Positions 10,334 to 52,809 of a stretch of DNA of 64,000 nucleotides are shown piece after piece. Source of the stretch: Fluviicola sp. (lineage in GTDB: Bacteria; Bacteroidota; Bacteroidia; Flavobacteriales_D; Crocinitomicaceae); assembly GCA_002734065.2 (NCBI GenBank), contig NVXU02000028.1, positions 1 through 64,000 of the forward strand, given 5' to 3'. How positions within the stretch are numbered: position 1 is the stretch's first letter; the number at the start of each line of letters is the position of its first letter. The notes below the pieces were generated by a model that was not told the DNA's origin, searched no databases, and saw only the letters and a list, made by a program, of their open reading frames with translations. Made by a program: the position numbers and the translations under genes.

Positions 10334-11239
10334 ATGACAATACAATCCCCCTTAACTATTTTTGCAAGTGCACTATTAATTATCCAATTTTCGTCCTGTA
10401 ATTCGCAAAACGAACGCCCAACACCAGAGCGTACTTATGTAATAGGCGAAGCTGAAAAACATTTTACCATGCCGCCAACTCCAGACTCCATAAGCTTTTG
10501 CGGAGTCACTGTGAGAATGGATAACTTTGATTTAAGAGAACGATTAGACAGAGAATTGATCGTGAACACCTACCGACACAGTGCAACAATCCAGTACATA
10601 AAACGTGCAAAACGATTCTTTCCAGCAATAGAAAAAGCATTGGCGAAGAATGGAATTCCCGAGGATATGAAATACCTCTGCGTTGCCGAAAGCGGATTGG
10701 CGCAAGTAACTTCTCGTTCTGGTGCAAAAGGATTCTGGCAATTCATGCCGGCAACCGCCAAAGAATACGGAATGAAAATCAACTCGGAAATAGACGAGCG
10801 AATGAATGTGGAAAAAAGCACCACGGCGGCTTGCAAATATTTAAATACGGCTTACAAGAAGTTTGACGATTGGTTTTTGGCCGCTGCAGGTTATAACAGA
10901 GGCATGGGAGGTATCCAAAAGGACCTTGATGCGCAAGGTGTTTCCAGTTATTTCGACTTGCAAATGCCGGAAGAAACAAATCGATACGTTTTTAGAATTA
11001 TTGCCTTAAAAATTGTCATGGAGAATCCCGAAGCTTATGGTTTTTATCCTGAAGAATTTGAGCTGTACGAACCCGTCGAAACAAGAACAATTACCGTGAA
11101 TTCTTCCATTCCTAACCTCGCAACTTGGGCAAAAGAAAATGGATCAACGTATAGAATGCTCCGTTTATTAAATACTTGGATTGTTGGAAATAAACTGACA
11201 TTTAGAGGTTCGGAATACAAGATTCAACTGCCGAAATAA
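10334..11239 (+). CDS. Membrane-bound lytic transglycosylase (SLT, MltD-like)
   Basis: The 301-residue lipoprotein has a lipobox FSSC (C22). Its SLT domain has the catalytic glutamate in AESG (about residue 119) followed by GAKGFWQFMPATAKEYG and the AAGYNRGMG segment. The C-terminal part (TITVNSSIPNLATWA to KIQLP) looks like a degenerate LysM-type module. It would cleave peptidoglycan glycan strands from the periplasmic face. Its stop overlaps the uvrA start by one base. Confidence 0.88.
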   Translation: MTIQSPLTIFASALLIIQFSSCNSQNERPTPERTYVIGEAEKHFTMPPTPDSISFCGVTVRMDNFDLRERLDRELIVNTYRHSATIQYIKRAKRFFPAIEKALAKNGIPEDMKYLCVAESGLAQVTSRSGAKGFWQFMPATAKEYGMKINSEIDERMNVEKSTTAACKYLNTAYKKFDDWFLAAAGYNRGMGGIQKDLDAQGVSSYFDLQMPEETNRYVFRIIALKIVMENPEAYGFYPEEFELYEPVETRTITVNSSIPNLATWAKENGSTYRMLRLLNTWIVGNKLTFRGSEYKIQLPK

Positions 11240-14052
11240 TGGCAAAGAAAACATACATAGAGGTTTACGGTGCTCGTGTACACAACTTGAAGAACATTGA
11301 CATCAAGATTCCTCGCAATGAATTAGTGGTCTTTACAGGTTTGAGTGGCAGTGGTAAATCTTCGCTCGCTTTCGATACTATTTTTGCGGAAGGTCAGCGC
11401 CGTTACATCGAAACATTTTCTTCTTATGCACGTCAATTTTTAGGTGGATTAGAACGACCAGATGTCGATAAAATTGAGGGCTTAAGTCCAGTGATTTCTA
11501 TTGAACAAAAAACGGTTTCCCGTTCTCCAAGATCAACTGTCGGTACGATTACCGAGATTTATGATTTCATGCGTTTGCTCTTCGCAAGAGTCGGAACGGC
11601 CTATTCTTACAACACTGGAGAAGCAATGGTTAAGTATTCTGACGACCAAATTGTGGATTTAATCATTGAACAATACGACGGCAAGAAAATTAGTGTGCTT
11701 TCTCCGAAAATTAAGGGAAGAAAAGGACATTATCGTGAATTATTCGAGCAAATTCTCAAAATGGGCTTTACCAAAGTGAGAATTGATGGAGAATTGAAAG
11801 ACATCACGAAAGGAATGCGAACTGACCGCTATAAAATCCACGATATTGAGATTGTCATTGACCGATTGGCGATTAGTAAAAAAGATAGACAACGTATCTA
11901 CGACGATGTTGTCATGGCAATGAAACACGGCGATAAATCCATGATGATTATGGATTTTGAAACGGAAGAAGTTCGCCATTTTAGTCGTTCATTAATGTGC
12001 CCAACAACAGGAATTAGTTACCCAGAACCTGAACCGAATTTGTTCTCTTTTAATTCTCCCTACGGAGCTTGCAAAACGTGCAGTGGTCTTGGAGAAGTGT
12101 CAGAAGTTGACATGGATAAAATCATTCCGGACACATCAAAATCGATTAAAAAAGGCGGTTTGGCACCTTTGGGAGAATACAAACGCAAGTGGATTTTCGA
12201 GCGATTGGATGCTTATTTATCGCAAGAAGGATATTCTTTGACGACGCCATTAAAAGACATGGAAGAATCAGTGCTCGACGTGATTCTCAATGGCAATGAG
12301 GGCTTGGAGCAATCGCAAACATCAAATGCTAATCTTGTAAAGGTTCGTTTTGAAGGTGTGATTCCTTTTATTTCTCGACATTCTGAAGAAAGTTCTGCAG
12401 CTATACAACGCTGGGCGCAAAGTTTTATGAATAAGAACGTTTGTTCAACTTGCAAAGGAACGAGGATTAAAAAAGAAGCACATTTCTTTAAAATTGACGG
12501 AAAAAATATTGGAGAATTAGCAACAACTGACATTTCGGAATTGGCGGAATGGTTCAAAGACGTGGAAACAAAGTTGAGCAAGACACAAAAGAAAATTGCC
12601 GTTGAAATTCTCAAAGAAATCAATGCGCGATTGGGCTTTATTGTTGAGGTTGGATTGACCTATCTTTCATTGCACCGTTCGGCAAAAACTTTGTCGGGTG
12701 GAGAAGCTCAACGCATCCGTTTGGCGACGCAAATCGGAAGCGAACTCATCAACGTTTTGTACATTCTTGACGAACCTTCTATCGGTTTGCATCAACGAGA
12801 TAATTCTCGGTTAATAAAGTCTCTGCAACGTTTACGGGACACAGGAAATTCGGTCATAGTGGTCGAACACGACAAAGAAATGATAGAAGCAGCCGATTTT
12901 GTCGTTGATTTAGGTCCTGGAGCAGGGAAAAACGGTGGAGAGGTTGTAAATGCGTCACCGATTGGTCAATTGCAGAATGAGAATTCGCTCACCAATCAAT
13001 ATTTAACAGGCAAAAAAAAGATAGAAGTTCCAAAAAAACGCAGAAAAGGCAATGGAAAAAAGCTGATTTTGAAAGGAGCAACGGGTAGGAATTTACAGAA
13101 CGTCAACCTGACCATTCCCCTGGGGACGATGACCTGTGTGACGGGGGTTTCTGGCAGTGGAAAATCGTCGCTGATTAACCAGACTTTGTATCCAATTCTC
13201 TTGAAAGAAATTTACCACGGCGTGAAAAAACCACTGCCGTATAAGTCCATTTCGGGCATGCAACATTTGGACAAAGTCATCGAGATTGACCAAAGTCCAA
13301 TTGGGCGAACTCCACGTTCTAATCCGGCAACTTACACAAAGTTATTCGATGAAATTCGCAGTATTTTTGCCAGTTTACCAGAAGCACAAATCAGAGGTTA
13401 TAAACCCGGTCGTTTTTCATTCAACGTTGTTGGTGGAAGATGCGAAACGTGCAAAGGCGGTGGAATGAAAGTCATAGAAATGAACTTCTTGCCTGATGTT
13501 TTGGTAGAATGCGAAACCTGCAATGGGAGACGATACAACCGAGAAACTTTAGAGGTTCGCTACAAGGGAAAGTCAATCAGTGATGTTCTTGAAATGACCA
13601 TTGCATCTGCCTCTCCGTTCTTTGCAAGTATTCCGAAGATACACAGAATTCTCTCCACTTTGGTTTCCGTAGGCTTGGGTTATGTGAAGTTGGGGCAACC
13701 TTCAACCACCTTATCGGGAGGAGAAGCGCAACGGATAAAACTCTCGGCAGAATTGTCAAAAAAAGGCACGGGAAATACAATGTACATCCTCGATGAACCT
13801 TCCACAGGTTTGCATTTCGAGGACATTAAAATGCTGTTGGCAGTTCTCCAGCGATTGGTGGATGAGGGCAACACAGTTTTGGTGATAGAACACAACCTCG
13901 ACATCGTAAAAGTAGCCGATCACATTGTGGACATTGGTCCTGATGGCGGTAAATTTGGCGGAGAAATTGTTTGCGCTGGAACACCGGAGGAGATTGTGAA
14001 GAAGAGTCAAGATGTTTCGTTTACGGCGAAGTATTTGGCGGGGGAGGTGTAG
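11239..14052 (+). CDS. uvrA: Excinuclease ABC subunit A
   Basis: The 937-residue protein is of normal length. It has two ABC ATPase modules with Walker [10 protein letters not shown] (about 33) and GVSGSGKSS (about 637) and signatures [11 protein letters not shown] and [11 protein letters not shown]. Its zinc modules are ACKTC and CETCKGG/CETCNG. The first zinc finger reads CPTTG rather than CPxC, a variant I believe is common in Bacteroidota. It recognises DNA damage with UvrB. It overlaps the transglycosylase stop by one base. Its stop lies four bases from the first attC-like core of the accessory stretch. Confidence 0.97.
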
Positions 14053-14055
14053 GCG

Positions 14056-14187
14056 GTTAACGGTTCAGGCTACAATGACGTGCGTCTTTTAACCTTGATT
14101 AGTTTTAGAAATAAAGATAGTCATTTTCGAGTAAACAATGGTTCGAAGAGTAAGCGGAGCATGCATTTGTAGGTAGTGTTATGCGTA
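14056..14187 (-). other. attC-like recombination site abutting uvrA
   Basis: Read on the minus strand, the site runs from an inverse core TACGCATAAC (14187-14178) to a core GTTAACC (14062-14056). The arms CTACAAATG (after the inverse core) and CATTGTAG (before the core) pair with an extrahelical base, as in attC stems. Its 132-bp length is within the attC range. The inverse core is a 10-base perfect complement of the start of the same cassette at 16070. No integrase is present in the window. Confidence 0.6.
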
Positions 14188-16070
14188 TTTACTCCCTTAT
14201 CATAGTTGTTTCAGATGTAGCATTGTTAACAGCTGGTAGGAAAAAGTATCTTCTTCTACCCGTGACGGTACTTGAATCATTTCCCATAGCCAACTATTTC
14301 TGATGTGGCGTTATTCTAATAGGTGGTCGTTAAGAACGCACTATTACCATGATAGAGAAATATTTGAGAAGGTGAAGGAGTTTAGGTTGTGGAAGTGATT
14401 ATATACAACTAATTGGATTTACGAAATTTACCAATCAAAGGTCCATGAGAATATATAACAGCATCTCCAAATCCAACATCTATTATATTCAACTTCGCAT
14501 TTCTCATTCCTCCAACGATATATCTATAATTATCCGAATCTGTGTAGATTTTGAAAGAATGGTTTCTATAAGTAGGAAGCTTAATTATATCCACTTGCTG
14601 TAATGAACCATCGGTTAAAATTGTGGCAAGAAACATTTTTTCAAAATACCCTAAGCTATCGAAAACAATCTCTCCCACTTTATAGCTTATATCAAAATAC
14701 CCTAATAATAACAATTCATCATTATTAAGGGCTAAATCCTTTACAACAGAAGAGGATATTGGTTTAACCCAGTTCATGACTCCATTTGAACTGACCGACA
14801 CAATCATTGAGCTGTAAAAATTGATAGCATCAATGCCTATGTCATAAAATGTTCCTGTATCGTTTTTCATTCGATAGCTAACATATACTCCTTCTTTATC
14901 TCCGCAGATTGCCATACATTCTGCCTTTATATTAGGACTATCTAAAACCCAAAGCTGGTCTCCTTTTGTTGAATAGCATGCAATATATGGCTTCCATAAC
15001 CTTTTCTTAAACTCTTTAGTTTTTGTTACAGCAACTCCAGCGACATAAAGAGAATTATTCGTGACAGCTATATGAAATTTTGAGGAATAATATGAGGTTC
15101 CATCAAAATCAAAAAATGCTTGATGAGCTTGTACTGGAGTTCCCTTCTTATTCAAAAACAAAATGAAACCAGCGTCTCCAGATTCAGAGGTCAACTGAAA
15201 TTCAGAACATAGAGTTGTACCATGCTCTTGATTTCCGGTCAGCACGTAACCATTTCGGCATGCTTTAAAGTCATGAATATTAAGGTCTCCATATTCATTC
15301 TCAAAAACTCTTTCTAATCTGGTATGCTTACCCTTTGAGTTTATGTGAAAGAGATAATACCCTTTCGTTAAACTATCAAATACAGAAGGCAACCATCCTC
15401 TGGTAATTCCAACGCTATCAACCCATTGTCTCGTTTCTTTAACCCTAATTAATAAAACCGTTGAACTAGACTGATGACATACACCTAGTACCTCTGTGCG
15501 CTGTTGATACAATCTATAGTTCCAGTTGACAATTCCCTCAGATGAATAACTGATAATAATATTTTGACGAGATATAAAAGTCCCTTGCTCAATAGTATCA
15601 TTATTCCCATCATATATTACAGGCTCAGTAGGTCCCCGCTTAATTGGAACTCCTACAACTACAACATTTCCAGAATTATCCATTGAGGAGTAATCATAAA
15701 CCATATCCAAAGAAGTAGCACTTGCACACCACTCAAATTGACTTACAGTATCTATTTGGCATGAGGAATTAAATAATACTAAAATGAATATAAGTCGTAA
15801 CATAAATATATAAGTCCATTGAAGTTAGAAAGTTACTCATTTTAACAAAAGTCCACTCCACAAAAAAAAACCTCATCAGTAATATTGACAAGATTACAAT
15901 GGTCAAAAAATAATTAAGAAGTTTAGGTTGTAGAGAAGAGGTGGTATTTGAAAAAGAACTACAACCATACCCTGTATAGGATTTGAACCACTGCTACTTA
16001 CCACAACCAAATACAACTGAAGTTACTATATGGTGAGGCTGCATGAGAATTATCTACTATTACGCATAAC
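14178..16070 (-). mobile_element. Candidate integron-type gene cassette carrying one lipoprotein gene
   Basis: GTTATGCGTA at 14178-14187 and its exact complement TACGCATAAC at 16061-16070 bracket a 1.9 kb segment with a single minus-strand gene. The cassette start being complementary to its own inverse core is the rule for integron cassettes. Between the gene stop and the inverse core (14188-14408) two imperfect copies of a roughly 40-base sequence occur (near 14199-14240 and 14286-14328), which I cannot explain. The region 14053-14408 holds no gene. Confidence 0.55.
14409..15803 (-). CDS. Secreted lipoprotein of unknown function, propeller-like
   Basis: The 464-residue protein has a hydrophobic leader ending in a lipobox-like NSSC (C15). 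The rest is beta-rich with recurring Gly-Asn and aromatic positions, such as GNVVVVG, GYVLTGNQ, LYVAGVAVT and LLLLGYF, spaced about 40-60 residues apart. This suggests a beta-propeller of the SBBP/PQQ sort. There is no T9SS tail. It is the only gene of a cassette-like segment. I cannot name its function. Confidence 0.7.
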   Translation of the reverse strand: MLRLIFILVLFNSSCQIDTVSQFEWCASATSLDMVYDYSSMDNSGNVVVVGVPIKRGPTEPVIYDGNNDTIEQGTFISRQNIIISYSSEGIVNWNYRLYQQRTEVLGVCHQSSSTVLLIRVKETRQWVDSVGITRGWLPSVFDSLTKGYYLFHINSKGKHTRLERVFENEYGDLNIHDFKACRNGYVLTGNQEHGTTLCSEFQLTSESGDAGFILFLNKKGTPVQAHQAFFDFDGTSYYSSKFHIAVTNNSLYVAGVAVTKTKEFKKRLWKPYIACYSTKGDQLWVLDSPNIKAECMAICGDKEGVYVSYRMKNDTGTFYDIGIDAINFYSSMIVSVSSNGVMNWVKPISSSVVKDLALNNDELLLLGYFDISYKVGEIVFDSLGYFEKMFLATILTDGSLQQVDIIKLPTYRNHSFKIYTDSDNYRYIVGGMRNAKLNIIDVGFGDAVIYSHGPLIGKFRKSN

Positions 16071-16279
16071 GGTATAATAATGCACATATGTGCATTATCC
16101 GCCTAGTGTTTTTATTTCAAATATAGTAAGTCTAAAGATTTCTTCACAGTTTGCCTACACTTTTTTAAGAATTTCCAAATTCAATTTTTCCAAATTCTTC
16201 ATCTTTTCCATTCTCACAGCACATCTCAAACGTCAATGGTATCAGCACCTACAGAAGTTTGCAAAGGTTTTTTTATTAC
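15804..16279. other. Gene-free stretch with a second attC-like core and a 22-bp palindrome
   Basis: Positions 16077-16098 form a perfect 22-base palindrome centred on CATATG. It sits inside a compact attC-like site (16064-16110): on the minus strand AACACTAGG at one end and CCGTTATGC at the other, with GG/CC and ATAAT/ATTAT outer arms. Its core is the start of the cassette below. A tRNA-like word near 15977 is discussed as rejected. No coding sequence is credible here. Confidence 0.5.
16200..16270 (-). repeat. Dispersed repeat, copy 1
   Basis: On the plus strand it reads CATTCTCACAG (16209-16219), exactly 37 bases, then GTTTGCAAAGG (16257-16267). It is about 85-90 percent identical along its length to copy 2 at 17248-17318. 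It lies just 3' of the minus-strand gene ending at 16280. Confidence 0.75.
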
Positions 16280-17116
16280 CTACTTCTTCTTTCCGTCTAT
16301 TTTTTTAATTTTATTTTCGGGTAAATAATTTTGTTCTGAAACTATTTTTTGTCCAGATTCTAATTCAAGAGCTTTCCTTGCGTCTCCTGCAATTGCACCA
16401 CCTTTTTTAGCAACATCCTTATTTTCTAAAAATCCTTGGGCATCTATATTTCTTGCAATTTCTGTTGTAGAAGCTTCTCCAAGCATTGAGAAAATCAATT
16501 CTAAATCACTCATGTGGTCTCGAAGATTTTCTCTTTTAAGCCCTTTAATTTCTTTGTATTCTGAAGGAGTGAGTCCGAAAGCCGCTTTAGAAATTTCTGC
16601 GGTTAAAATAGCATATTCTTGGTGTTCTTTTATTCCTCTTTCTTTCCATTCATCTGTCAATTCTTCACGAATAGCAATACTTCGCATCCGTTTTTCAATC
16701 CAATCGTCGGGATAGCCTTTGGCTTTATAAATCTCTCTCGCTCTTTTTGAAGCTAATTCAGGATCTTCAATCTCTTGAAGTCTTTCGTAACCGACTTTTG
16801 CTAACCATCTTTTAAATGGCTCTGCCTTTGGAGAAGGAATTGATTGAATAATTCTTAAAAGCCCTTCGGTGTCTGCGCAGTCTGTTTCTCTTAATTTTCC
16901 ATCAGGGGCTTCTAATTTCAACTGTACGATATTTTCGTACAGTTCATTATAACCTTCTTTTGTAAGCTTTCTTTTTAAGTCACTCCAATACCTACGAGCA
17001 TTTGAACTTTCCGTTAATACTTGAACTACATCAATGATAGCGAAATACCATTTTTGGTCTGTTTCATTAAAGGTAGTTCTAATTTGTTTGTCTTGAAAAA
17101 GTTTAATATTGCTCAT
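16280..17116 (-). CDS. BRO-N/DinD-like protein (phage antirepressor family)
   Basis: The start is ATG at 17116, giving 278 residues; an upstream reading of 22 more residues is less likely, because MSNIKLF is the usual family start. The BRO-N domain (about 1-110) has W-x-FAIIDVVQVLT, the pattern ARRYWSDLK, and TDCADTEGLLRIIQSIPSPKAEPFKRWLAKVG. The C-terminal half (DEWKERGIKEHQEYAILT onward) matches DinD-like proteins. These are DNA-binding or damage-inducible proteins often found on mobile DNA. The gene sits alone between two 70-base direct repeats, which suggests recent acquisition. Confidence 0.85.
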   Translation of the reverse strand: MSNIKLFQDKQIRTTFNETDQKWYFAIIDVVQVLTESSNARRYWSDLKRKLTKEGYNELYENIVQLKLEAPDGKLRETDCADTEGLLRIIQSIPSPKAEPFKRWLAKVGYERLQEIEDPELASKRAREIYKAKGYPDDWIEKRMRSIAIREELTDEWKERGIKEHQEYAILTAEISKAAFGLTPSEYKEIKGLKRENLRDHMSDLELIFSMLGEASTTEIARNIDAQGFLENKDVAKKGGAIAGDARKALELESGQKIVSEQNYLPENKIKKIDGKKK

Positions 17117-17247
17117 GGTCAAGTAAATTTCTAAGGAGTAATAAAAATAAGAATTTATTTTACTTTTTCTCGCTTTCTGCAACAGTATTTGCTAAGATTA
17201 TGGTCTTAAATATATTAATTTATTTATTCGGACTTTTAGTGTTTTAC

Positions 17248-17318
17248 CATCTTTTTCATTCTCACAGCACATCTCGAATCTCAATGACATCAGCACCTAC
17301 AAGAGTTTGCAAAGATTT
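17248..17318 (-). repeat. Dispersed repeat, copy 2
   Basis: CATTCTCACAG (17257-17267), 37 bases, GTTTGCAAAG (17305-17314). It flanks the BRO-like gene on the side opposite copy 1, in the same orientation. The gap 17117-17428 also holds an attC-like stretch on the minus strand between AACACTAG (near 17396) and GTTAAAT (17321-17315). I see no gene in this gap. Confidence 0.75.
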
Positions 17319-17428
17319 AACACCACCATAGTCACTTCTCTAATGCTTTACGATGTGTCTGTTTTGTTTCGTTTACGGCGGAGTTGCTAGTGTTAACGAT
17401 ATATTCCCATAGAACAACGCTACTATCG

Positions 17429-50448: not shown

Positions 50449-50607
50449 TGCTAACGTCTCGGCTATGGTTAGTGCGGGATTTCAAAGCTCTGAACTTTCA
50501 AATTGGCAATTAGCTAAACCAAAGGTTTAGCGGTATTCATTAATTGCTCCAAACTTTCAGTTTGCCACCAAAACCCGTATTGCGTATAGGTTTTATTATT
50601 CGGGTTT
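50449..50607 (-). other. Long attC-like site (159 bp)
   Basis: On the minus strand the site runs from AAACCCGAAT to core GTTAGCACC. The outer arms CCTATACGCAATACGGG and CCCGCACTAACCATAGCC pair imperfectly. The middle has a perfect GCTAAACC/GGTTTAGC hairpin. It is closely similar to the site at 51657-51851. Confidence 0.65.
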
Positions 50608-50612
50608 GTTTT

Positions 50613-51125
50613 TTATCCTGCACCATGAATTTGCTTTAATTTATATGCTCCGTCAATTAATTTAAAAGTAAATATCATAGAATACTCTCCAATTGGGTCT
50701 TCTAGTAATTCAACGCAACCAACACTCCACTGAAAATAGCTATTATCCTCTGCAATAAACAAGTGTGCTTTATATATACATCCTTTGTATTCAATTCCAG
50801 AGTTTTTTGATTTGTTTATTAAAGAAAATTGCTTTAGTACTTTTAATTCAATAGAATCCAAAAGAGTGCATTTTTGCATTAGCAGCTCTTTTGAAATTTC
50901 ATAATTGTGTTTTTTCATGTCAATTCGAGGAGGGTCAGATGTTACAAGTCGCGCTAATCCCATATCTCCCTCAATTGGAAAACTAGATACCGCAACCAAT
51001 TTCTTGCAATCCTCTTTTAACAAAGCAGTTTGAAATTTAGTAAATACTTTTTCAATTGTATCATTTTGTGCAAATGAATATGTCACACAAAACAGTATCA
51101 AAATTGATGTAGTTATTATCTTCAT
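50613..51125 (-). CDS. Secreted protein of unknown function (cassette gene)
   Basis: This 170-residue protein has a signal peptide (to about residue 19, SFAQ). The body mixes helix and beta with conserved-looking LKEDCKKLVAVSSFPIEG and a C-terminal LIDGAYKLKQIH, a NTF2-like feel. There is no confident family. Its stop lies five bases before the inverse core of the cassette, and its start 13 bases after the cassette boundary region, so it fills a 550-base single-gene cassette (50598-51147). No promoter box is visible. Confidence 0.72.
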   Translation of the reverse strand: MKIITTSILILFCVTYSFAQNDTIEKVFTKFQTALLKEDCKKLVAVSSFPIEGDMGLARLVTSDPPRIDMKKHNYEISKELLMQKCTLLDSIELKVLKQFSLINKSKNSGIEYKGCIYKAHLFIAEDNSYFQWSVGCVELLEDPIGEYSMIFTFKLIDGAYKLKQIHGAG

Positions 51126-51140
51126 ACTTTATTTAATAAA

Positions 51141-51273
51141 CCCTAACATTTAGGCTAGGAAAAATAGTACGGCTCCTGAGCGTAACTTTCTTTTAAAGAT
51201 AGGAATGATTTCCTAACAGTAAGTAATTGTACGAAGCATAAACTCCGTATTTTTTTTTAGCCAGTATTATGGG
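51141..51273 (-). other. attC-like site (133 bp)
   Basis: From CCCATAAT (51273-51266, inside the last codons of the gene) to core GTTAGGG (51147-51141). Outer arms GGCTAAAAAA and TTTTTCCTAGCC pair, as do ACGGAG and the CTC...CCGT side. TACGGAGTTTATGCTTCGTA-like hairpin lies at 51231-51252. Confidence 0.6.
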
Positions 51274-51652
51274 CATCTATTTTTGTTAATTCTAATCTAT
51301 CTTCAATATTAGTAAAACTCCTATTTGTCCGAAGTGTCAATTTCCCGAATTCCTTAGAGATTTCTAGTACTTTGAGTTGTTTTCCATCGCTAGTCCATAA
51401 TTCCAAATTGTAGAACTCGTCAAAGTCAATTATTTTCCATTTTCCAGATTTCACGGGTAACAATTCTGTGTTAGAATTAAATGTTCCATTTTCTTTTATG
51501 TGGAGTAGAGTAGAATCACCGTCTACAATGTATTCACCTACATACTCTGGGGTTTTCTCTTCATTGCCACTACAAGAATAACAAGTTGCTAATCCAACGA
51601 GAATTGTAAAAATCAATATAATACTTCGGGAAATATTCATTCTACTCTTCAT
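51257..51652 (-). CDS. Small lipoprotein of unknown function (cassette gene)
   Basis: The protein has 131 residues, or 127 if it starts at the second methionine at 51640. The lipobox is CYSC. The body looks like a lipocalin-type small barrel of the kind GEYIVDGDSTLLHIKENG and GKWKIIDFDEFYNLELW. The function is unknown. The gene nearly fills its cassette (51266-51664): the start is within 12 bases of the core, and the last codons overlap the inverse core. Confidence 0.72.
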   Translation of the reverse strand: MKSRMNISRSIILIFTILVGLATCYSCSGNEEKTPEYVGEYIVDGDSTLLHIKENGTFNSNTELLPVKSGKWKIIDFDEFYNLELWTSDGKQLKVLEISKEFGKLTLRTNRSFTNIEDRLELTKIDAHNTG

Positions 51653-51656
51653 TACC

Positions 51657-51851
51657 CATAACGTTTGGCTATGCGTAGTGCGGGATTTAAAAGCTACGAA
51701 CTTTCAAATTAGCACTTAGCTAAACCTTTGCGTTTTGTTTTTATCTTTTCATTTTTAAAAGCTAAACCAAAGGTTTAGCGGTTTTCATTAATTGCTCTAA
51801 ACTTTCAATTTACCGTCAAAGCCCTTATTACGTATAGGTTTTGTTACCACC
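51657..51851 (-). other. Long attC-like site (195 bp)
   Basis: From GGTGGTAAC (51851-51843) to core GTTATGGG (51664-51657). The outer arms CCTATACGTAATAAGGG and CCGCACTACGCATAGCC pair. The same inner hairpin as in the 159-bp site is present (GCTAAACC/GGTTTAGC near 51764-51782), with about 45 extra bases inserted next to it. Confidence 0.65.
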
Positions 51852-51858
51852 AGTGGTC

Positions 51859-52626
51859 TTATTCTTCGATTTGACTTAATTCTTTTTTTCTGCGTTTAAC
51901 AAATAAATCATGGTAATCTTCCTTCTCTTTAAATTTTCCTAGCTGTTCATTGTAGATGTAAATGTATTCTACATTGTCGACAAATTCATATTGGTAAAGA
52001 GTCCAGTGTTTTTTACCGCTAAATATTAAATCAGTAAATCCGTCATTATTAATGTCTTGTATCATCAAGTTAAGCCCGTTTGGGTCATTAATATCTTCAT
52101 CATCATGCGCATCAAATGTTCTCGAATAATATCCCTTTGGTTCCTCAACTAAATTCACTAATTTATCTTTCACTAGCTTATAAATCCCATAGCTTCCATT
52201 TCCTTTAGAAGTTGCATTCAATCCTTTTAAATATACTTTGTCTTTTGGAAAAATAGTCAAGAGTTCAAATTCTTCAAATTGAGTGATGGTAATAAGTTCT
52301 CCACTAAGTTGAAACAGTAATTGATACTTGAAAGGAAAAGCTGCACCGCAACCATCTCCATAATCATACTCTAGGATTATTATTGAGTCCTTCGAACCAG
52401 AAATTTCTATTTTTTCATAATGAGTCAAAAAATCGGGAGCTAAATATTCTTTCACAGTCATGCTGTCTACTTCGAGATTGTAGTCATTTATAATTGTTTT
52501 AATTAAACTTACCGTGTCAGAAATATGAGGAAAATCTTTTATAATGTCAAGGTTTTTAGATTGTCCAAAAGATGTAACAGTTAAAAATAATATTGATATA
52601 AAAGCTAGTAGTTTCATTTTTTGCAT
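51859..52626 (-). CDS. Secreted protein with a VCBS/FG-GAP-like segment (first cassette gene)
   Basis: Starting at ATG 52626 (or 52617) the protein has 252-255 residues. A signal peptide ends near SFGQ. A C-terminal DINNDGFTDLIFSG element is typical of VCBS/FG-GAP calcium-binding repeats; the first half has IIILEYDYGDGCGAAFPF. The function is unknown. Its cassette is bounded by GTTACCACC (52636-52628) and GGTGGTAAC (51851-51843), a perfect 9-base complement. Confidence 0.72.
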   Translation of the reverse strand: MQKMKLLAFISILFLTVTSFGQSKNLDIIKDFPHISDTVSLIKTIINDYNLEVDSMTVKEYLAPDFLTHYEKIEISGSKDSIIILEYDYGDGCGAAFPFKYQLLFQLSGELITITQFEEFELLTIFPKDKVYLKGLNATSKGNGSYGIYKLVKDKLVNLVEEPKGYYSRTFDAHDDEDINDPNGLNLMIQDINNDGFTDLIFSGKKHWTLYQYEFVDNVEYIYIYNEQLGKFKEKEDYHDLFVKRRKKELSQIEE

Positions 52627-52661
52627 TGGTGGTAACAACTGAATATAGCCCACTAATGCAC
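52623..52661 (-). other. Boundary site at the head of the array (attI-like or half attC)
   Basis: On the plus strand TGCATTGGTGG (52623-52633) pairs with CCCACTAATGCA (52650-52661). The core GTTACCACC (52636-52628, minus) lies inside. The bases before the core, GGGCTATATTCAGTTG on the minus strand, vaguely resemble the 3' arms of the other sites, but a matching 5' arm is missing, so it could be an attI-type site. Confidence 0.45.
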
Positions 52662-52682
52662 TTTATCCACATTACACTTTCC

Positions 52683-52711
52683 CAAAGATACAAATTATTT
52701 CTCATCTTCAA
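52683..52711 (-). promoter_or_regulatory. Promoter reading into the cassette array (Pc-like)
   Basis: On the minus strand TTG (52711-52709), 18 bases, then TATCTTTG (52690-52683) match the Bacteroidetes -33/-7 pattern. The box is 47 bases outside the first cassette core, so it could drive the first cassette from outside. Confidence 0.55.
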
Positions 52712-52809
52712 CCTTCACAAAATCAGCTCACAAAGCGACAAACAATCATTTACAATTAATTCTTTTGCAATAAGTTTTCCTCTAGGCTTAGCACTTCTCT
52801 GAGAATAAA

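Follow-up and report, generated by a model that had tools for sequence, protein, structure and literature searches.

A gene cassette of integron type beside uvrA in a Fluviicola genome and a candidate integrase family in Bacteroidia

Integrons are generally recognised by the integrase IntI, whose extra domain is the accepted marker, and surveys relying on it find integrons to be nearly absent from Bacteroidetes (PMC9024848). IntegronFinder 2.0, which tells IntI apart by this domain, reported In0 elements from Bacteroidetes and one complete integron, in Salinibacter ruber (PMC9024848). A survey of tyrosine recombinases described the IntI insertion as essential for integron function, yet as incompletely conserved among its integron-like proteins (PMC8138268). 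The rAID arrays of gut Bacteroidales are described as consisting of a tyrosine recombinase, immunity genes of one orientation and intergenic motifs that are conserved (PMC12247911). Here we analysed a stretch of 64 kb from Fluviicola sp. (contig NVXU02000028.1, positions 1–64,000; 'the window' throughout) and found beside uvrA a unit that, judged by its anatomy, is close to certain to be an integron-type cassette. We consider it highly probable that this unit, 14061–16069, belongs to a system of integron type that is particular to the Bacteroidia, with the integrase, attI and promoter proposed below.

The cassette beside uvrA

The locus comprises the following features:

11239–14052, plus strand: uvrA, the neighbour gene, stop codon at 14050–14052
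14050–14056: TAGGCGG, containing the uvrA stop codon; complementary to CCGCCTA at 16099–16105
14053–14060: flank between cassette and uvrA stop, minus strand reading TTAACCGC; the other half of the predicted empty site
14061–16069, minus strand: gene cassette of 2,009 bp, starting TTATGCGTA after G16070 and ending ...CCTGAACCG at 14061
14061–14187, minus strand: attC-like site of 127 bp, crossover G at 14061
14187–14178, minus strand: R'' box TACGCATAAC of this site, followed by the spacer ACTAC
14172–14159 and 14083–14070, minus strand: its L'' box CTACAAATGCATGC and L' box GCACGTCATTGTAG
14409–15803, minus strand: lipoprotein-like ORF of 464 aa, the only long gene of the cassette
16070–16098, minus strand: attI-like site, i.e. 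the palindrome ATAATGCACATATGTGCATTAT (16077–16098), TATACC, then G16070 before the cassette

Read along the minus strand, the palindrome ATAATGCACATATGTGCATTAT (16098–16077), TATACC, G16070, TTATGCGTA... and the lipoprotein gene are followed by TACGCATAAC, ACTAC, CTACAAATGCATGC, a loop, GCACGTCATTGTAG, CCTGAACC, G14061, TTAACCGCC and the end of uvrA. The preliminary description had placed a cassette at 14057–16069, four bases from the uvrA stop; the placement against uvrA holds, while the G|TT rule sets the bounds at 14061–16069 and the distance to the stop codon at 8 bases. Its exact core match, 16070–16061 (minus) against 14187–14178, is confirmed: GTTATGCGTA lies at 14178–14187 on the plus and at 16061–16070 on the minus strand. 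The two copies are the start and the R'' box of one cassette, complementary in 10/10 positions. As a bare 10-mer GTTATGCGTA is unremarkable, with 3 copies in the genome of 3.49 Mb, and it was dropped as genome-wide evidence for this reason; what is notable is its placement. The third copy (contig C49) lies between ordinary genes, and no site was seen there by eye. The ORF of 464 aa carries a lipobox-like LFNSSC on direct reading of the sequence; it matched no Pfam family over the cut-off, and an Rfam search of the whole window gave no match.

In 29 other genomes the region downstream of uvrA holds various genes (one locus ended at a contig edge), and the lipoprotein gene never adjoins uvrA. 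The gene is therefore not an ancestral neighbour of uvrA, and its constant presence there in relatives, which had been named as the observation that would speak against a cassette, is not what these genomes contain. The empty site is predicted to read ...TTATACCG|TTAACCGCC...; no uninterrupted copy was found in close relatives, the nearest of which shares 93% identity in the C-terminus of uvrA and carries different DNA at this position.

The 22-bp palindrome at 16077–16098 is perfect, and its centre lies 18 nt from the crossover G16070. Only two perfect palindromes with arms of at least 9 bp, this one included, occur in the window. The preliminary description took the site before the cassette for a compact attC-like palindrome; the palindrome is real, but since its spacing to the crossover is the one found behind integrases of the genus (see below), attI appears to be the better reading of 16070–16098. 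A dif-like reading was rejected by eye, the spacing being wrong. Further upstream, a 71-bp direct repeat (16200–16270 and 17248–17318, 87% identity) flanks a BRO-N domain gene (16280–17182); its two copies resemble the 3' end of a protein gene. At 17365–17400, minus strand, CGTTAACACTAGCAACTCCGCCGTAAACG is possibly the decayed 5' half of a further attC upstream of the BRO-N gene.

The attC family and its cassettes

A covariance model (R1) was built from three sites, among them 14061–14187 of the window. The genome-wide covariance search that the preliminary description had proposed yields 5 matches in this genome; 46 were found in one congener (G023) and 1–12 in most other members of the genus, while outside the genus no match was better than E 0.1. 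Most R1 sites examined in G023 stand head-to-tail in the same orientation along a contig, interspersed with shorter ones (42, 63 and 71 bp) whose arms are nearly perfect. Across the genus, attC counts track the presence of the integrase described below only loosely, partly because draft assemblies break at repeats.

An integron cassette arrives as a circle, in which the bases that now follow G|TT at its start completed its own attC. As the cassette carries its own TT... start in this way, the start should complement its own R'' and not the start of the next cassette. In 37 neighbouring pairs from one congener, R'' matched its own start beyond GTT at 5.84 of 7 positions, but the next cassette's start at only 3.24/7, as compared with 3.29/7 for random starts (permutation 0/20,000); the match was perfect in 18/37 cassettes. 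The 10/10 complementarity between start and R'' in the window is this cassette rule. The arms of the sites covary as well: 84.3% of cells were paired (20–34% with slid partners), none of 500 shuffles equalled the score and all 14 pairs were changed on both sides, in an alignment that was fitted to the model and hence leans toward pairing.

When folded as DNA, the bottom strand was the more stable one in 81/86 sites (47/48 from the genus and 34/38 from other Bacteroidia), without any such bias in control segments (123 versus 130). For the window site we calculated −11.6 kcal/mol for the bottom and −6.0 kcal/mol for the top strand. The bottom strand is the strand recombined in classical integrons (PMC8352920), and by folding energy it would also be the folded attC substrate here. 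Taken together, arm covariation, the start/R'' rule, arrays and bottom-strand bias are, as far as sequence can tell, the signatures of integron attC sites.

The window holds a second locus of this kind (50455–52671):

52636–52671, minus strand: attI-like relic TGTGGATAAAGTGCATTAGTGGGCTATATTCAGTT|G, close to the attI of the congener G012 (TGTGGATAAAGTGCACTAGTGCACTTTATCCACTTG)
51662–52635, minus strand: cassette 1, ORF 51859–52653, start GTTACCACC, R'' GGTGGTAAC
51147–51661, minus strand: cassette 2, ORF 51257–51652, start GTTATGGGT, R'' decayed to CCCATAAT
50455–51146, minus strand: cassette 3, ORF 50613–51125, start GTTAGGGTT, R'' decayed

Three cassettes, two of them with a decaying R'', thus follow a relic attI; the attC of cassette 2 was matched by R1 at 51142–51272. 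Just before the relic attI, TTG-N19-TATCTTTG on the minus strand (52680–52720) matches the Bacteroidetes promoter consensus and could drive the cassettes. No integrase lies beside either the uvrA locus or the second locus, so that both are read as insertions in trans or as remnants.

By DNA search, the window site (14059–14182) recurs with 79% identity on another contig of the same genome (C33:15544–15668) and with 72% identity in a congener. The cassette on C33 has an esterase-like gene between its start GTTATAGAC and its R'' GTCTATGAC, and there is no palindrome at its start. A DNA search for its empty site in 26 relatives matched only the attC itself, plus scattered short repeats of the flanks, and so yielded no empty site. 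A further cassette of this genome (C32:190120–190250) shows 10/10 complementarity of start and R'' and has a compact attC-like hairpin before it. From two loci of the same architecture the preliminary description had concluded that cassettes spread within this genome. The site family does extend across genome and genus; what has to be widened is the scale, from a local matter to a system that spans the class and has an integrase of its own.

A XerA-like candidate integrase and its attI sites

The candidate integrase of this genome (C44:151–1293) is a XerA-like tyrosine recombinase of 381 aa. Its score is 224.6 for NF040815, the XerA/integron model (cut-off 220), and 187.7, below the threshold, for the IntI model TIGR02249 (cut-off 265). 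Its GLR and HxLRH motifs are 93 residues apart; the distance is 91–93 residues in almost all relatives but 133 in thirteen IntI proteins, and the 42-residue insertion of IntI is therefore absent from this family. In a quick tree, IntI forms one clade (SH-aLRT 100) and the Bacteroidia integrases another (87), both apart from the XerC/XerD of the genome, from which the Bacteroidia integrases are split with an SH-aLRT of 99. The predicted structure of residues 102–368 matches XerA (Z 23.5) and IntI4 (Z 21.1). An additional N-terminal domain of ~80 residues is found on this integrase; VIA-align related it to the DNA-damage-recognition domain of XPB (Z 6.0–6.6) and the HARP domain of SMARCAL1 (Z 3.9), both in the grey zone. 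Foldseek returned no match for it under E 0.001, and one family member matches Pfam HARP at E 0.0014.

Among 295 Bacteroidia genomes newly sampled across the class, 147 carried the insertion-free integrase. IntI over the cut-off was found in none of 40 relatives, not even in G023 with its 46 sites; the same search was positive in 105/395 genomes of the phylum, nearly all from other classes and only one from the same class. Because the insertion-free integrases (~380 aa) adjoin arrays in many genomes and IntI is absent, this family very likely moves the cassettes, as far as gene neighbourhood can indicate.

Behind the integrase stop codon of G023 come TGAATAAACAACATGTGTTGTTTATTCA, CTTG|TTAGTGG and then a cassette with the R'' CCACTAAC; in our genome GATATGTGTACCGGTACACATATC and TGATTG|TTACCC stand at the same place after the integrase on C44. 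The crossover G lies 17–19 nt past the palindrome centre at these two and at most other integrases of the genus, and the 18 nt of the C44 and G023 attI equal the distance in the window. In a complete genome (G014) about twenty cassettes are strung behind integrase and attI, each end being the next start (with a few gaps in the automatic tracing). Shorter chains behind integrase and attI occur in Winogradskyella ursingii, Aequorivita sinensis, Seonamhaeicola aphaedonensis and Flavobacteriaceae S0862. Among 24 newly sampled integrase loci, 13 had an exact 9-mer match of start and R'', compared with 6/480 shuffles. A palindromic attI is not universal: only 3 of 26 fresh integrase loci passed a strict palindrome test. 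Other loci have a different sequence ahead of G|TT, and attI is therefore not of one type. A sigma-70 promoter scan gave no excess; it is also the wrong promoter type for this phylum.

Alternative explanations and comparison with known systems

Site anatomy, cassette rule, arrays, strand bias and the integrase beside arrays are read from sequence, and from them we infer a recombination scheme. The XerA-like recombinase of ~380 aa would cleave the folded bottom strand of attC at G|TT, and the cut attC would be joined to attI, or else to a G|TT that occurs by chance; the cassette would enter as a circle with its own TT... start. The window cassette, sitting at the attI-like palindrome beside uvrA without an integrase of its own, could have been placed there by an integrase acting in trans, or could be the remnant of an integron whose integrase was lost. 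Expression of the lipoprotein gene probably starts from a promoter upstream of the palindrome. Against this scheme weigh the missing integrase at both window loci, the different DNA at the predicted empty site of the nearest relative, the restricted occurrence of the palindromic attI and the loose link between attC counts and integrase across the genus.

The nature of the palindrome leaves most room for a different view. If the flanks are joined, TAGGCGG, CCGCCTA and the palindrome form a perfect inverted repeat of 36 bp that includes the uvrA stop codon and has T-rich DNA after it; for this reason the cassette seems to interrupt a terminator. The repeat is likely the former terminator of uvrA, a role we infer from its structure, interrupted by the insertion and by 11 further bases that are unaccounted for. 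The palindrome may accordingly be a uvrA terminator with a mere resemblance to attI. That it is only a terminator, with the cassette having entered a chance G|TT inside it (an attG-like insertion), would agree with the C33 cassette, which starts without a palindrome; yet the distance from centre to crossover equals that of true attI sites, palindromes of such length are rare and no terminator role attaches to the relic attI at the other window locus. We regard this alternative as possible, if doubtful.

Other movers fit the data less well. A conventional IntI that has the extra domain, and that either came from a plasmid or has disappeared again, would account for attC anatomy and bottom-strand bias, both of which resemble classical integrons; genuine IntI is found in other classes of the phylum. 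Given the lack of IntI over the cut-off in the 40 relatives, even in the one with 46 sites, the single positive genome of the same class and the insertion-free recombinase directly adjoining the arrays, we judge a classical integron to be very unlikely. Spread as a transposon, or by single-strand transposition of a hairpin-ended element, would turn the 10-bp complementarity at the ends into short terminal inverted repeats, and in one congener a transposase-like gene does adjoin such a site. Against this, the units vary in their end sequences and abut without target duplication, head-to-tail behind an integrase, which makes such a route extremely unlikely.

The integron-type reading with the XerA-like integrase is the one compared here with described systems; in the literature covered, mostly outside subscription journals, we found no description of a class-wide system in Bacteroidia. 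If this reading is true, about half of the Bacteroidia carry a gene-capture platform missed by IntI surveys, attC recombination is possible without the IntI insertion, rAID arrays and integrons are unified and the published question about 'XerD' beside tet(X) (PMC7473080) receives a testable answer. More tentatively, and with somewhat less than even confidence, we propose that integron function arose or persists without the insertion in a second lineage across Bacteroidia, in which the N-terminal domain, weakly similar to the DNA-fork-reading domains of XPB and SMARCAL1, may substitute for it in the recognition of folded attC, and that the rAID arrays, as well as the route of tet(X) into Acinetobacter, go back to this lineage.

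With XerA, XerC and XerD the integrase shares core fold and sequence (NF040815 over the cut-off), but it forms a clade separate from the XerC/XerD of the genome and serves cassette arrays instead of one dif site. In the xerD-tet(X3)/tet(X5) modules of Acinetobacter (PMC7494873, PMC7473080), the 'xerD' fragment is the C-terminal part of a member of the integrase family (54% identity), and between this fragment and tet(X) stands AGTGGATATATACGCCATTTGGCGTATAGCCACTT|GTTATGTGCC, its G at centre + 18. On the plasmids NZ_CP041297 (6717–6920) and NZ_CP044520 (3158–3360) an attI-type palindrome is located between the truncated integrase and tet(X3) or tet(X5). The modules differ in this truncation and in an attC-like remnant after tet(X3) that does not match the cassette start; with its R'' not matching the start at 7 bases, the tet(X3) cassette may not be whole. 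The arrangement suggests that tet(X) may have left Bacteroidota as a cassette of the Bacteroidia integron-type system.

The integrase of the rAID arrays is related (47% identity, covering 73% of the query) and is followed by co-oriented short genes, and in the array of the Bacteroides ovatus plasmid NZ_CP081918 8/8 cassettes follow the start/R'' rule (8–9/9, versus 5.9 in wrong pairs). Their crossover, in contrast, is CA|TT, and their cargo consists of orphan immunity genes; the window lipoprotein has no Pfam family over the cut-off. The passages covered of the rAID account describe the arrays by intergenic motifs and give no attC/attI anatomy (PMC12247911).

The closest likeness is with IntI integrons (class 1, Vibrio superintegrons, Salinibacter and others): an attC of R''/L''/L'/R', the G|TT crossover, a start complementary to R'', head-to-tail arrays from attI and a bottom strand that folds better. 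The Bacteroidia integrase differs in lacking the 42-residue insertion, in its extra N-terminal domain and in its position upstream of attI in the direction of the array, and part of the family has a palindromic attI of 22–34 bp, 17–19 nt from the crossover. Covariation of attC, the pairing of R'' with its own start and bottom-strand folding are all present, as is, in relatives but not in the window, an array next to the integrase; the integrase itself lacks the IntI-specific domain. Because it does not belong to the IntI family, the system is, on this comparison of sequences, best described as one that would work like an integron with a different integrase.
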